DNA from: Terriglobia bacterium
Lineage (GTDB): Bacteria; Acidobacteriota; Terriglobia; Bryobacterales; Bryobacteraceae
Direction: 5' to 3'
Length of the DNA: 64,000 nt
Assembly: GCA_016650235.1 (NCBI GenBank)
Contig: JAENWC010000110.1
Coordinates: forward strand, 1-64,000
Part shown: piece by piece, positions 12,085-19,507 of the stretch
Numbering within the stretch: the stretch's first letter is position 1
Layout of the letters: every line of letters begins with the position of its first letter
Notes under the pieces: generated by a model
What the model was told of the DNA's origin: nothing
Seen by the model: only the letters and a program-made list of their open reading frames with translations
The model's database searches: none
Translations under genes and position numbers: made by a program

Positions 12085-12174
12085 GGTGAGGTGCGAGAGC
12101 GGTTGAATCGGGCGGTCTCGAAAACCGTTGAACCTTTACGGGTTCCGTGGGTTCGAATCCCACCCTCACCGCCA
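12085..12174 (+). tRNA. tRNA-Ser (anticodon CGA)
   Basis: The acceptor stem GGTGAGG pairs with CCTCACC, the discriminator is G and CCA is encoded at 12172-12174. The anticodon loop CTCGAAA is closed by a CGGT/ACCG stem and gives anticodon CGA, reading UCG. A long variable arm (after the anticodon stem) and the T-arm GGTTCGAATCC are present, as expected for a class II tRNA. An integrase relic ends 3 bp beyond its 3' end. Confidence 0.93.
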
Positions 12175-12176
12175 TT

Positions 12177-12900
12177 CTAACTCTTTGTGTTTCCATTAGT
12201 TACGGACATCCATTTTCTCGTGTACCTTTTACGTACCCTTCGTCGAAACGACTCGTTCAAGTAAACGCCGCTCAAGCCCGCTTTTTGAAAGGCACCACAA
12301 CAACGGCCGCCGCCGCCGTCCGCCGCTTCATCTCCCGCCTGGACTATTGGGTCGAGTTCCCAACTTTTTGCCACACCCGCCTCCAGTTGTTCCTGCCGCG
12401 CTTTCACCCACGGCGAGTAGTGTTTTTCAGTCACCTTGATGCTGCTATGCCCCAGAAGGACCGCGACCCTCTCCGAGGCTCTCTTGCAAGCAGCAACTCA
12501 ACCGCAAAGGTGTCGCGAAAGCGATGAGCGTGGCCGGATTTAATCCCGGCAAGTTCGAAGATCTTGCTGAGACGGTTCATGTAGGTCCGCGCCACGCCGT
12601 CCTTGCTCGAAGCCCCGCTCCAAAAGTAGAAGGTATCGTTCATCGGCGTGAAGCTGCTTAGCGCCTCAACCACGAACGGCGGCAGCGGACAACAGACTGG
12701 CGTGCCAGTCTTCTGCGTGTACAAAAATAGCCTTCCGTCCGTTATCCGGTCCCGAGCCAGTCTCACGGCGTCCCCTATACGAAGTCCACTGTATCGTAGC
12801 AAAAGCACCAGCGCCCGCATCCGCTGGCGGTTGCCTCGATACTGATCGCAGGCCTCCCAGGATTCGCTCCATTTCGCCCTGCGTAAAAGGCATGGTCTGC
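12177..12900 (-). pseudogene. tyrosine-recombinase integrase relic at tRNA-Ser
   Basis: The catalytic domain of a phage-type tyrosine recombinase is spread over three frames. It begins MPFTQGEMERIL, shifts at about 12857 (one extra G in CTGGGAG), continues ACDQYRGNRQRMRAL and YSGLRIGDAVRLARD (catalytic Arg), then GHAHRFRDTFAVELL (HxxR). It shifts again at about 12480 into ERVAVLLGHSSI (His) and EKHYSPWVK (nucleophilic Tyr). The stop is 3 bp from the tRNA-Ser 3' end, the usual place for such integrases. The N-terminal arm and core-binding domains are missing, replaced by sulfatase sequence. The enzyme cannot be functional. Confidence 0.85.
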
Positions 12901-13574
12901 TTCGCTGGATCATACATTCTCATGTACTCTTCCGGCGCGCCATAGGGGTCGTGTGGCGGGCCCATCGCCACCGTCAGGAAGAATGGCCGGCTGTCCCCTC
13001 TGCTCTGCCGCAGATAATCGATCGCGATGTCGGTCCAGGCCTCCGCCTCAAACTTTTTGATCGGAATCGGCTCGGAGGTGTCCCGGAAGTATTGGGTGTC
13101 GAAGTGGCGATGGCTGCATAGGTTAGCCGCCCAGAACTGGAAGCCCTGCCGTCTCGGCCCGGGAGGCACAAAACCGGGCAGCCGCTGGCCGCCGTCCAGA
13201 TGCCACTTGCCGATAAACCCGGTGCGGTACCCGGCTCCGGCCAGGATTTCGGCGATTGTCACCTCGGATTCGCGCAGACGAAGGTCGTTGGCAACTATGC
13301 CGTTCTTGTGCGCATATTTGCCTGTCAGCATGACAGCGCGAGCCGGGCAACAGACCGGGGTATTCGCTACCGTGTTGCGGAACAGGACGCCTTCGCTCGC
13401 GAGCCTGTCAATATGAGGGGTCTTGACCTCCTCGTTGCCATAGCAGCCGACCGACTGGGCCCGAAGCTGGTCGGCGAAGACGAACAGGATATTCGGCCGC
13501 CGTTGCGCGGCTGCGTTCTGCGCGCCGGACGCCGCCGATGCAAGTCCGGCTGCCACGAAATCACGCCGTCTCAT
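12896..13574 (-). pseudogene. sulfatase, C-terminally truncated
   Basis: About 225 residues of a Tat-exported arylsulfatase-family enzyme. The start MRRRDFVAAG is a twin-arginine signal, followed by RRPNILFVFADQL (metal-binding N-terminal strand) and CCPARAVMLTGKYAH, which holds the Cys-x-Pro-x-Arg site for formylglycine. Homology stops at about YDPAK (near 12900), where integrase sequence begins in the same frame; the ORF runs on to 12666 through the integrase relic. The lost half carries the Asp-His metal ligands near the C terminus, so the enzyme should be dead. It is divergent from an intact sulfatase gene, 49 bp between starts. Confidence 0.8.
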
Positions 13575-16085: not shown

Positions 16086-16658
16086 AGATGGCGAAGCTCA
16101 CACGGGCCACCCGGACCGCACGTCTCCGTCGGGCCCCACACGTCGCCCGCTTCGCCACAACGGGACGCGGTTGGTAGCGGTTCGAGTCGCTTCCAAACCC
16201 CGGTTCTCCGTGTCCATTCCTATGCACGGTTCCTCTCGGGGATTTGGGAGGGGCGGTTATTACTTCCGAAATCACCGGGTCCGCCGGGCTCGTAAGCGCT
16301 CGAAACAAAGAACGGTCAATGACTTGCGTTCCGGAGAGGTTGTTGGAAACTCGGGTTTGAGGGCACGCAAATCGGCAGTGCCGTTGCCGGCTTCACGTTT
16401 TGAGCTCTACTTGGCAGCCGCGGCACGTGGAAATGGAGGAAAGACCAACCGATGAACATCGAGCCAGGACTCGTTTAGGGTTTACCGAACCACCTTACTG
16501 ATCAACTATTTACACCGTCTCCGGCCATTCGTCTGTGACGAATTTTCCTTCGTGTAGCGCTCGGGGAGCCGAGCCGTCTCTTGTGTTACTCGGAGATCGC
16601 AATTCCGAATGCAGTATGCACGGCCCGGCTCCCGGCATCCTCTGTTTGGGCTCAGTTG
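16086..16658. other. gap with no recognisable gene
   Basis: Several open frames run through this stretch but none shows protein-like features, and no RNA gene was recognised. It is probably decayed sequence upstream of the glycosidase remnant. Confidence 0.5.
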
Positions 16659-16698
16659 CAGTTGTTATCCGCACGGGTGCCCGTGCAGATATTAACTG
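16659..16698. repeat. 40-bp imperfect palindrome (hairpin)
   Basis: Outer arms CAGTT/AACTG and inner arms GCACGGG/CCCGTGC frame a 2-base loop; 17 of 20 positions pair. It has two paired blocks separated by a short bulged segment. It lies next to the attC-like site and could be a terminator or the remains of a second folded recombination site. Confidence 0.5.
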
Positions 16699-16766
16699 AA
16701 ATATGTGCCGTCCGGGTAGCGGGCAACATCCTCGCCGCGTAACAAGATATTCGTGAGTTGCGGCAT
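16692..16766 (-). CDS. very short ORF starting inside the attC-like site
   Basis: A 24-residue frame (MPQLTNILLRGED, then VARYPDGTYFS) begins at an ATG that lies within the R' box GTTATGC of the attC-like site and ends TAA at 16692-16694. In integron arrays the next cassette's gene often starts very near the R' box, so this may be the beginning of a second, truncated cassette. Coding status is not supported otherwise. Confidence 0.25.
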   Translation of the reverse strand: MPQLTNILLRGEDVARYPDGTYFS

Positions 16767-16848
16767 AACGTTCGTCATAATCGACAGCAAAAAATGGCGC
16801 GACGAAGGAGCGGCGCTTTTGCTGTCCGTGTTGATTGCATTGTTAGGT
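16763..16848 (-). other. attC-like integron recombination site
   Basis: Read on the minus strand, the site starts with ACCTAAC (fits RYYYAAC) at 16848-16842 and ends with GTTATGC (GTTRRRY with one mismatch) at 16769-16763. Between them GACAGCAAAA and TTTTGCTGTC form a perfect 10-bp stem around a GC-rich loop. At 86 bp it is within the usual attC range. The TAA stop of the neighbouring gene lies inside the ACCTAAC box, as is common for cassette genes. No second attC and no integron integrase were found. Confidence 0.6.
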
Positions 16849-17268
16849 ACGCGCATTTCTCGACAACCACCAGACAACAGGCAGTAAAAGAGCCAATGCG
16901 CCGCCCTGGAGTATGGGAGTCATTAACACTGCAATGGACCCCTGGGCATCCGGGCGCCAAAAAATGACGTCCGCTAGAAAGAGAATACCGCCAGTGGATA
17001 CTATGACTGCGACAACATACCAATGAAAAGATTGGTTGCCCTTGCGCCGTAATAATATCAGCGCCGCACTCATGGCTGTGTAAGGGAAAATTAACCAGAC
17101 GGAGAAAAATACGAAGGCTGCTGTGCTGGTTGGCTTAAGTACGCCCACGAACAAAACGGTAGTGCATCCAGCCATGGCAATCAGGAGGAAAGTAATAGGG
17201 ATCATCCATTTCATGGCTGGCGGCTCATTTCCGATAACACCGAACTCCTGTTTCTGGAGCATGCCCAA
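16843..17268 (-). CDS. four-helix membrane protein, probable integron cassette gene
   Basis: A 141-residue protein with four predicted membrane spans: about residues 19-40 (WMIPITFLLIAMAGCTTVL), 48-72, 83-102 and 112-134, ending in a short basic tail (SRNART). The start may be the first ATG or the ATG at residue 19 (MKWMIPI). I do not recognise a family; small multi-span proteins of unknown role are common cassette cargo. Its stop codon lies within the R'' box of the attC-like site, so gene and site would form one cassette read toward lower coordinates. Its bases look less GC-rich than those of neighbouring genes, consistent with transfer. The other cassette border was not found upstream of 17268. 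Confidence 0.65.
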   Translation of the reverse strand: MGMLQKQEFGVIGNEPPAMKWMIPITFLLIAMAGCTTVLFVGVLKPTSTAAFVFFSVWLIFPYTAMSAALILLRRKGNQSFHWYVVAVIVSTGGILFLADVIFWRPDAQGSIAVLMTPILQGGALALLLPVVWWLSRNART

Positions 17269-17392: not shown

Positions 17393-19507
17393 TCAGCGAC
17401 TGCCCGCGCCGGCCGGCCGTTGCTTGCGCCGGTAGACGACGGAGTCCAACATCTGCTGGAAACGCGGTTGATCCCGAAGTTTCGCGAGCAACGGATCGCG
17501 CCGAAACCATACTTCCCGTTCATCCCCCATCCGCACCGCACGGTCCATCCACTCCAGCGCACGGAGAATGTCACCCACCGCGGCATAGAATTCCGCCGCC
17601 TGCAAGGGGCCAAAGACATGCCCTCCGGCATAGGTCTGAAGCCCGCCATCCATTTCCTGCAACGCCTCCGCTTTTTTGCCTTCCCGCGCCAGCAGTAGCG
17701 CTCGAACAAGCCGCAAACGAAAGTTCCGGAGGCCTTCCGGGGCTGCGCGTTCCACCGTCTTGCGGGCCATTGGAAGGTCGCCTGCATCGAGGTGGACACG
17801 AGCTAGACATGCAATAGCCGCTGGATTCTGTGGATCCTGCTCCAGGATTCGATCTTGTTCCTGGATGGCGCCAGCCGTGTCACCTTCTTCCCGAAGCAGA
17901 TCCCCAAGATACAAATGTGGCGGCCACTCGAGCGGCGCACGCGCGATCACTTGTCTCGCCTCCTGAATGGCCCGCGCAGTGTCCCCATTGATGTGATGGT
18001 AAAGAATGCGCCACGTGTGGACTCTGGGATCGTTCGGATTGACCTTCAGAGCCTGATCCGCTTCTGCCTGGAACAACTCCTTGCGCCCCTGCAGGAGATA
18101 GACCACTGCGAAGTCGGTATGCGCCTGCCCACAGTCTGGGTCATCGAGCAAGGCGCGCCTGGCCTCTTCTGAGGCCGTGTAGAGCAAATTTGAATCATTG
18201 GAAGCTCCCGACCAAAGCAGCATCACATGATTCCAGGCATACAGGGCTCGCGCGGCGGCAAACCTGGGGTCCACCTCCAGCGCCCGTTCCAACATACGGC
18301 CCATCTGCGCGGGATCACCCCGCGGTCCGGTGGAGCCAAACAGCAACGCACGCTCGTAGTAGTCGTTCGCCGCGGCTTTTGCTGACCGGCGGGATCCGTT
18401 GCTGAGCGGCTTTTCGATCAACGCCGTCTCCGGCCGAACCCGCCAGAGACCCACTCCGAGAGCGCCCAGGGCCATCGCCGCAGCCGCAGCAGCGGCAAAG
18501 ATCCAGCGCCTGCGCGAAGGCTGTACGACAGCCGGCACCGCATTCCATACACTGGGCCGAATGGCCTGCATTGCGGAGCGCAAGTCCACCAGCATGTCAT
18601 CCATGTACTGATAGCGCTCCTCGGGCTTCTTGGCGAGCGCCTTGCCGACGATCCGGTCCAACTCCAGCGGCACCCCGGCTCGAATCGCCGTGATCGGTTC
18701 GTAAGGTTCGTGAATGATCGAATAGACCACGGCCGCCCCGCGCACGCCTTCAAATGGCAAACGGCCAGTCAACATCTCGTAAAGGACTACTCCGAGAGAC
18801 CAGATATCCGTGCGCCGATCTGTTACCCTGTTTTGCGCCTGTTCCGGCGACATGTACGCGGGGGTTCCCATGATTGAATCGGTCTCGGTAAGGCGGATAC
18901 TTCCGGTAAGCTGAGCCAAGCCGAAGTCCATTACCTTCACCTGGCCCGTCGAGGTCAGCATCAGGTTGGAACTCTTGATGTCCCTATGAACGACGCCCTT
19001 CTGGTGCGCCAACCGCAATCCTTCCGCCGCCTGTATGGCGATATCCAGCGCTTCATCGAGCTTGAGCGGACGCTCCTTGATCTTTTCCCGCACCTCCAGG
19101 CCGTCAATGAAGCCCAAGGCGAGAAAGATGCGCCCGTCGACTTCGCCGATCTCGTGGACGATGCAGATGTTGGGGTGATCGAGCGATGCTACCGTTCGCG
19201 CTTCCCGCAGGAAACGCTGCTTGTGCTCTTCGCTCTCGAGTAGATGTGGGGCAAGGAACTTCAGGGCAACGGTGCGGTCGAGATTGAGGTCTTCGGCTTT
19301 GTAGACCACACCCATCCCGCCGGAACCGAGTTGCCGGATGATTCGGAAGTGCGAGATGGTTTGGCCGATCGTCAGGGAGGTTTCCTTCGCCGACTTTCTT
19401 AGGTTAGGCGGTCTTTGTTGCCCGGTCAAACGCACCGATATCCCGCAGCCGGTCAGGGACAGTGCTTCGTGGTCCAATATCTGTGGAAGGGATGATGACG
19501 TGACCAA
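17393..19507 (-). CDS. membrane Ser/Thr protein kinase with periplasmic TPR domain
   Basis: A PknB-type kinase. Visible are the Gly-rich loop LGSGGMGVVYKAED (about 60-73), the ATP Lys in VALKFL (83), HRDIKSSN (174-181), DFG (194-196) and GTPAYMSPEQ. A poly-Ala membrane span follows at about 335-355, then TPR-like repeats to residue 704 that would lie outside the membrane and sense or bind partners. The start is uncertain: homologues begin near TIGQTISHFRII (residue 46, about 19372), where only a CTG is available; the ATG at 19507 overlaps the divergent hicB start by 8 bp. No substrate is identifiable. Confidence 0.85.
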   Translation of the reverse strand: MVTSSSLPQILDHEALSLTGCGISVRLTGQQRPPNLRKSAKETSLTIGQTISHFRIIRQLGSGGMGVVYKAEDLNLDRTVALKFLAPHLLESEEHKQRFLREARTVASLDHPNICIVHEIGEVDGRIFLALGFIDGLEVREKIKERPLKLDEALDIAIQAAEGLRLAHQKGVVHRDIKSSNLMLTSTGQVKVMDFGLAQLTGSIRLTETDSIMGTPAYMSPEQAQNRVTDRRTDIWSLGVVLYEMLTGRLPFEGVRGAAVVYSIIHEPYEPITAIRAGVPLELDRIVGKALAKKPEERYQYMDDMLVDLRSAMQAIRPSVWNAVPAVVQPSRRRWIFAAAAAAAMALGALGVGLWRVRPETALIEKPLSNGSRRSAKAAANDYYERALLFGSTGPRGDPAQMGRMLERALEVDPRFAAARALYAWNHVMLLWSGASNDSNLLYTASEEARRALLDDPDCGQAHTDFAVVYLLQGRKELFQAEADQALKVNPNDPRVHTWRILYHHINGDTARAIQEARQVIARAPLEWPPHLYLGDLLREEGDTAGAIQEQDRILEQDPQNPAAIACLARVHLDAGDLPMARKTVERAAPEGLRNFRLRLVRALLLAREGKKAEALQEMDGGLQTYAGGHVFGPLQAAEFYAAVGDILRALEWMDRAVRMGDEREVWFRRDPLLAKLRDQPRFQQMLDSVVYRRKQRPAGAGSR

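Follow-up and report, generated by a model that had tools for sequence, protein, structure and literature searches.

Integron cassettes are recognised by their ends. A cassette starts with TTRRRY, complementary to its own R'' box, and holds a single ORF that ends at or just before R''. The attC site closing it has an R'' box (RYYYAAC) and an R' box (GTTRRRY, cut at G^TT) and forms an imperfect palindrome with L''/L' arms and an extrahelical base; the integron integrase, IntI, recombines cassettes by acting on the folded bottom strand of attC. Elements lacking the integrase have been described as well: a single attC lacking an integron integrase is termed a SALIN (PMC12690207), and a cluster of attC sites lacking one is termed a CALIN (PMC9024848). 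According to the IntegronFinder 2 study, elements with a single attC can be true (PMC9024848). Three origins have been published for integrase-less clusters, namely off-target insertion, loss of intI and rearrangement (PMC8618304), and short-read assemblies, which break at attC arrays, over-count such clusters (PMC9024848). In Acidobacteria, both integrons (PMC8618304) and attC sites (PMC8352920) are already known.

Here we characterise a locus on the minus strand of a 64,000-nt stretch of acidobacterial DNA (the window) which, with a probability of about 85%, we read as a SALIN: a single cassette, made up of a gene for a four-span membrane protein and its attC, most likely the remnant of an integron whose integrase was lost. 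Its features are as follows:

16763-16848, minus strand: attC of the membrane-protein cassette, 86 nt, identified from the sequence and by covariance model
16783-16826, minus strand: inner stem of the attC, 10 bp, perfect, GACAGCAAAA/TTTTGCTGTC, with arms 16826-16817 and 16792-16783 around a variable terminal loop, from DNA folding
16843-17214, minus strand: cassette gene, 123-aa four-span membrane protein, ORF from ATG, stop inside R''
16769-17244, minus strand: putative cassette unit, 476 bp, from the TT of GTTCGGT to the G of R'
17393-19507, minus strand: Ser/Thr kinase-TPR gene, upstream and co-directional, about 83% identical in DNA to a copy on contig C421

Read on the minus strand from 16848 to 16763, the order of the site is ACCTAAC-AATGC-A-AT(C)AA-CACG-GACAGCAAAA-...-TTTTGCTGTC-GA-TTAT-GACGAAC-GTTATGC. 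This order of parts equals that of class 1 attC sites: R'', a five-base spacer, L'' with one extrahelical C, a variable stem, L' and R'. The R'' box, ACCTAAC (16848-16842), fits its consensus fully. The R' box, GTTATGC (16769-16763), deviates from GTTRRRY at one position, a T at the second R, and keeps the GTT, with the G^TT cut point between 16769 and 16768; the two boxes pair at just 5 of 7 positions. The arms are canonical L''/L', AT(C)AA/TTAT with the extrahelical C, and the stop codon of the membrane-protein gene, TAA at 16845-16843, forms positions 4-6 of R''. The boxes, the 10-bp stem, the 86-bp length and the stop inside the first box are thus present in the sequence exactly as the original prediction had described them.

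The membrane-protein ORF, which has an alternative upstream TTG start at 17268, encodes four hydrophobic segments. No Pfam family scored over the cut-off, with a weak similarity to Nramp below it, and no relatives of the protein were found in 395 other genomes of the phylum, in genome_contigs or among plasmids. The cassette protein is therefore an orphan, and orphan proteins are common in environmental cassettes. The GC content of the cassette is 0.50, compared with 0.60 in host genes. At the left end of the unit, GTTCGGT (17245-17239) pairs with the cassette's own R'' ACCTAAC at 6 of 7 positions; the boundary is otherwise a tentative placement. The kinase gene has the same orientation and lies about 180 bp upstream, and any expression of the cassette would come by read-through from it. 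We expect this orphan cassette protein to have a neutral or weakly beneficial effect. A joined-flank search for an empty site in 237 genomes of the family returned none, its matches being confined to a dispersed repeat in the right flank, and kinase synteny, used for the same purpose, found no ortholog at 1e-150 in the same-genus genome G001. BLAST of the attC against plasmids gave chance matches only, exact patterns of the attC 5' half had no match in viral_contigs and genome_contigs, and no other copies of the attC or its protein were found in the collections searched outside this genome.

Within the genome, a DNA search with the attC and the gene found C421, a contig with a decayed copy of the window locus at its end; this contig could come from a co-binned close strain. 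On C421 the 3' end of the kinase gene is about 83% identical to that of the window and has a premature stop; next come the same leader and the opening bases of the membrane-protein gene, after which a deletion leads to the 3' half of the attC. This half is 93% identical to the window up to GTTATGCCGC; beyond it lies a different gene behind GGAGG, ending at GCGGCATAAC, followed by AAGTC and then a perfect ATTGCAGCGG/CCGCTGCAAT stem. GTTATGCCGC and GCGGCATAAC are exactly complementary, at 7 of 7 positions and, when extended, at 10 of 10. It is a hallmark of cassettes that their opening bases pair with their own R''. The GC content of this second cassette is 0.49, so that each of the two has about 50% GC while the genome has 60%. 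Its attC, the R' of which is GCTAAGT, received no covariance-model call. Taken together, the two sequences indicate that the degenerate GTTATGC of the window is the start of a neighbouring cassette, and it would match ACCTAAC poorly because it begins that cassette.

Further attC sites lie elsewhere in the genome, a 6.08-Mb assembly of 562 contigs that is 86% complete. Since 150 of 4032 candidates were scored, genome-wide counts are lower bounds: with our acidobacterial covariance model (R2, described below) we found at least one site on C328 (58.8 bits), two on C533 (49.7 and 22.5 bits), one on C534 (32.9 bits) and an array of five on C333 (23-31 bits). All four contigs resemble the window in composition. 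The genome thus has CALINs alongside the window SALIN, and the earlier description of the site as solitary, without a second attC, holds within the window, where R2 has one match, but not genome-wide. The five attCs of C333 (810-4071) are heterogeneous, and their cassettes encode an FRG-domain protein and a protein with a LexA DNA-binding domain. The array on C533 (5602-7702, minus strand) has cassettes for a protein-kinase-like protein and a TIR-domain protein, a possible defence cargo. On C328 (9171-9980, minus strand) the 58.8-bit attC follows a cupin gene and is directly followed by a pair encoding a PSK/Rv0623-like antitoxin and a PIN-domain toxin.

As the original prediction had noted, no intI is visible in the window, and the IntI profile (TIGR02249) has no match over the cut-off in the 86%-complete genome. 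The best IntI-like match, a 289-aa tyrosine recombinase on C126, is below the cut-off, has no match to profile positions 177-234 and was rejected as IntI. In the wider sample, 5 of 399 genomes of the class have an IntI over the cut-off, compared with 113 of 396 in the phylum. A scan with R2 found attCs in 14 of 60 relatives, 13 of which have no over-threshold IntI, the exception being the order-level relative G025 with attC arrays and a full IntI. Two attC-bearing genomes, G004 (C297) and G415 (C43), hold IntI fragments. In G406, of the same family, an IntI over the cut-off (C339, 15908-16741) reads ...PAASHSFATHLL... without the conserved HxLR stretch, and a search of the 20 kb around it gave no attC. 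In the same-genus G001 (98% complete), two attCs lie on C29, and there is no IntI match at 1e-35. Apparently broken IntI genes in the family are consistent with repeated integrase loss. Given the C421 copy, the arrays elsewhere in the genome and these broken genes, we therefore favour an old array that has lost its integrase.

The alternative that survives best, and which we still consider unlikely, is that the host has a complete sedentary integron with an active IntI, that intI lies in the missing 14% of the assembly, and that the window site was seeded by off-target, attG-type insertion. It draws on the fact that the attC arrays of this genome begin close to the ends of contigs, the first attC of C333 being at 810, as well as on the breaking of short-read assemblies at attC arrays (PMC9024848); published work describes off-target insertion as one way in which such elements arise (PMC8618304; attG in PMC12901181), and the arrays with full IntI of G025 fit a resident integron. 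However, near-complete G001 carries attCs without a matching IntI, as do all but one of the attC-bearing relatives at the profile threshold, two of these and G406 having broken genes instead. A single off-target insertion is further opposed by the neighbouring second cassette on C421, which argues for an old array.

It is improbable, and by our tests largely refuted, that the site is a chance resemblance, i.e. an intergenic stem-loop such as a terminator after the membrane-protein gene with coincidental boxes. In first-order Markov versions of the window, boxes plus a stem of -12 kcal/mol or lower occur at 4.6 places per 64 kb, and we dropped this combination as evidence for an attC; adding canonical L arms and a TAA-bearing box reduces the figure to 0.3 per 64 kb. 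The minus-strand folding proposed earlier does yield the stem, but the single-strand fold energy, with a z-score of -1.6 on either strand, is not exceptional and not decisive, and the R' box is degenerate. As boxes with a stem are so frequent in simulated sequence, we built covariance models. For the first, R1, we used ten attCs taken from integrons of plasmids and acidobacteria; the second, R2, was built from 49 R1 matches at IntI-bearing loci of acidobacterial genomes and plasmids, with the window and C421 left out. With default filters, R1 called the site at the same coordinates as the original prediction; with filters off the site was not listed, probably owing to the limit on match length in that mode. 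When R2 was run on the window and C421, its sole match was 16763-16848 on the minus strand, full length, at 20.1 bits and E 0.017. At 20.1 bits the score is weak: judged by background matches of 16.7-19.3 bits at E 2-8 in the genome scan, chance alone should give about one match of this kind per 6-Mb genome. Against coincidence stand this independent call, the probability of 0.006 that a random box would also contain the stop codon of an ORF 100 aa or longer, the low GC of the unit, and an Rfam search of the window that returned tRNAs only and no family at the attC. At the same junction, C421 adds a second cassette whose two boxes are complementary over 10 nt, and the attCs elsewhere in the genome are unmistakable. 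The identification as attC, which the original prediction had put forward as its own interpretation, is accordingly supported by the model, the L''/L' layout, the stop in R'', the low GC and the second cassette of C421. A covariance-model call and similar sites elsewhere, the two things whose lack it had named as telling against the site, were both found, the latter in this genome and in the relatives.

Under the favoured reading of an old array with a lost integrase, the history of the locus may be pictured in four steps. An integrase now absent or unassembled would have inserted promoterless cassettes via the folded bottom-strand attC, cutting G^TT of R'. The window cassette would once have preceded another cassette that began TTATGCCGC, because exactly this box starts the second cassette of C421, together with its 10-nt complementary R''. 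The locus and its kinase gene would then have come to exist as two diverged copies, both decaying: the sequence differences are seen directly and their order is our reconstruction, C421 having lost most of the gene and half of the attC and the window copy having lost or exchanged the following cassette. With no integrase the cassette would be unable to move, but the intact cut site and stem could still serve an integrase provided in trans. We infer 'chromosomally fixed', the term applied earlier to the cassette, from the absence of the integrase in an assembly that is 86% complete.

A very doubtful variant is that the family's cassettes persist and go on moving between loci without a resident IntI, either because another host tyrosine recombinase acts on attC in trans or because integrases visit transiently. 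If true, the attC-bearing, integrase-less members of the family would constitute an integrase-independent cassette pool.

Least credible of all is that the site belongs to another mobile element, such as the palindrome at 16651-16701 with its flanks or a truncated tyrosine recombinase nearby: the dispersed palindromic repeat does lie 60 bp downstream and the recombinase ORF 4 kb away, but in the five loci compared the match covers only the palindrome and the sequence directly around it and stops short of the attC, the repeat is found elsewhere in the family without this site, and the attC junction of C421 has no palindrome beside it. The repeat itself is a 22-nt inverted repeat; several genomes of the family have copies 83-94% identical to it, and G454 has three. 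At two loci (L147 and L148), read by eye, it abuts an apparent segment of a comM-like gene, which in other bacteria is known as an integration target. At 12085-12913, near tRNA-Ser(CGA), the recombinase ORF (Phage_integrase, 160 aa) and a truncated sulfatase-like ORF overlap, an arrangement that suggests a scar left by a tRNA-targeting element.

In this study we have documented an integrase-less cassette remnant in a class with rare intact integrons, adding a well-documented case to a type of element already known. The attC could be recognised correctly from sequence alone when the cassette context was used. Because such a remnant, the rarity of intact integrons in the class and the broken IntI genes in the family come together, integrase loss with lingering cassettes is a testable history for this lineage.

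Among known systems, a complete integron has intI and attI beside its array, and here no intI was found in the window or in the assembled genome. Sedentary chromosomal integrons with IntI, such as those of G057 and G065 in the same class and G025 in the same order, are alike in having attC-type sites that close single-gene cassettes; they differ from the present case in that no IntI was found in this genome and its attCs are heterogeneous rather than of one repeated type. As far as the account of cassettes inserted at non-classical attG sites cited in PMC12901181 (Loot et al. 2024) goes, such an insertion would likewise give a solitary cassette away from an integron, whereas here no empty site was found and C421 suggests an array context. 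The five-attC cluster of C333 and the two attCs of C533 are like CALINs, from which the window locus differs in having one attC. The closest match is the SALIN, which likewise has one attC, one cassette gene and no integrase within the contig. We see no basic difference between SALINs and the window locus, the particulars of which are a mildly degenerate R' and a decayed copy on another contig of the same genome.
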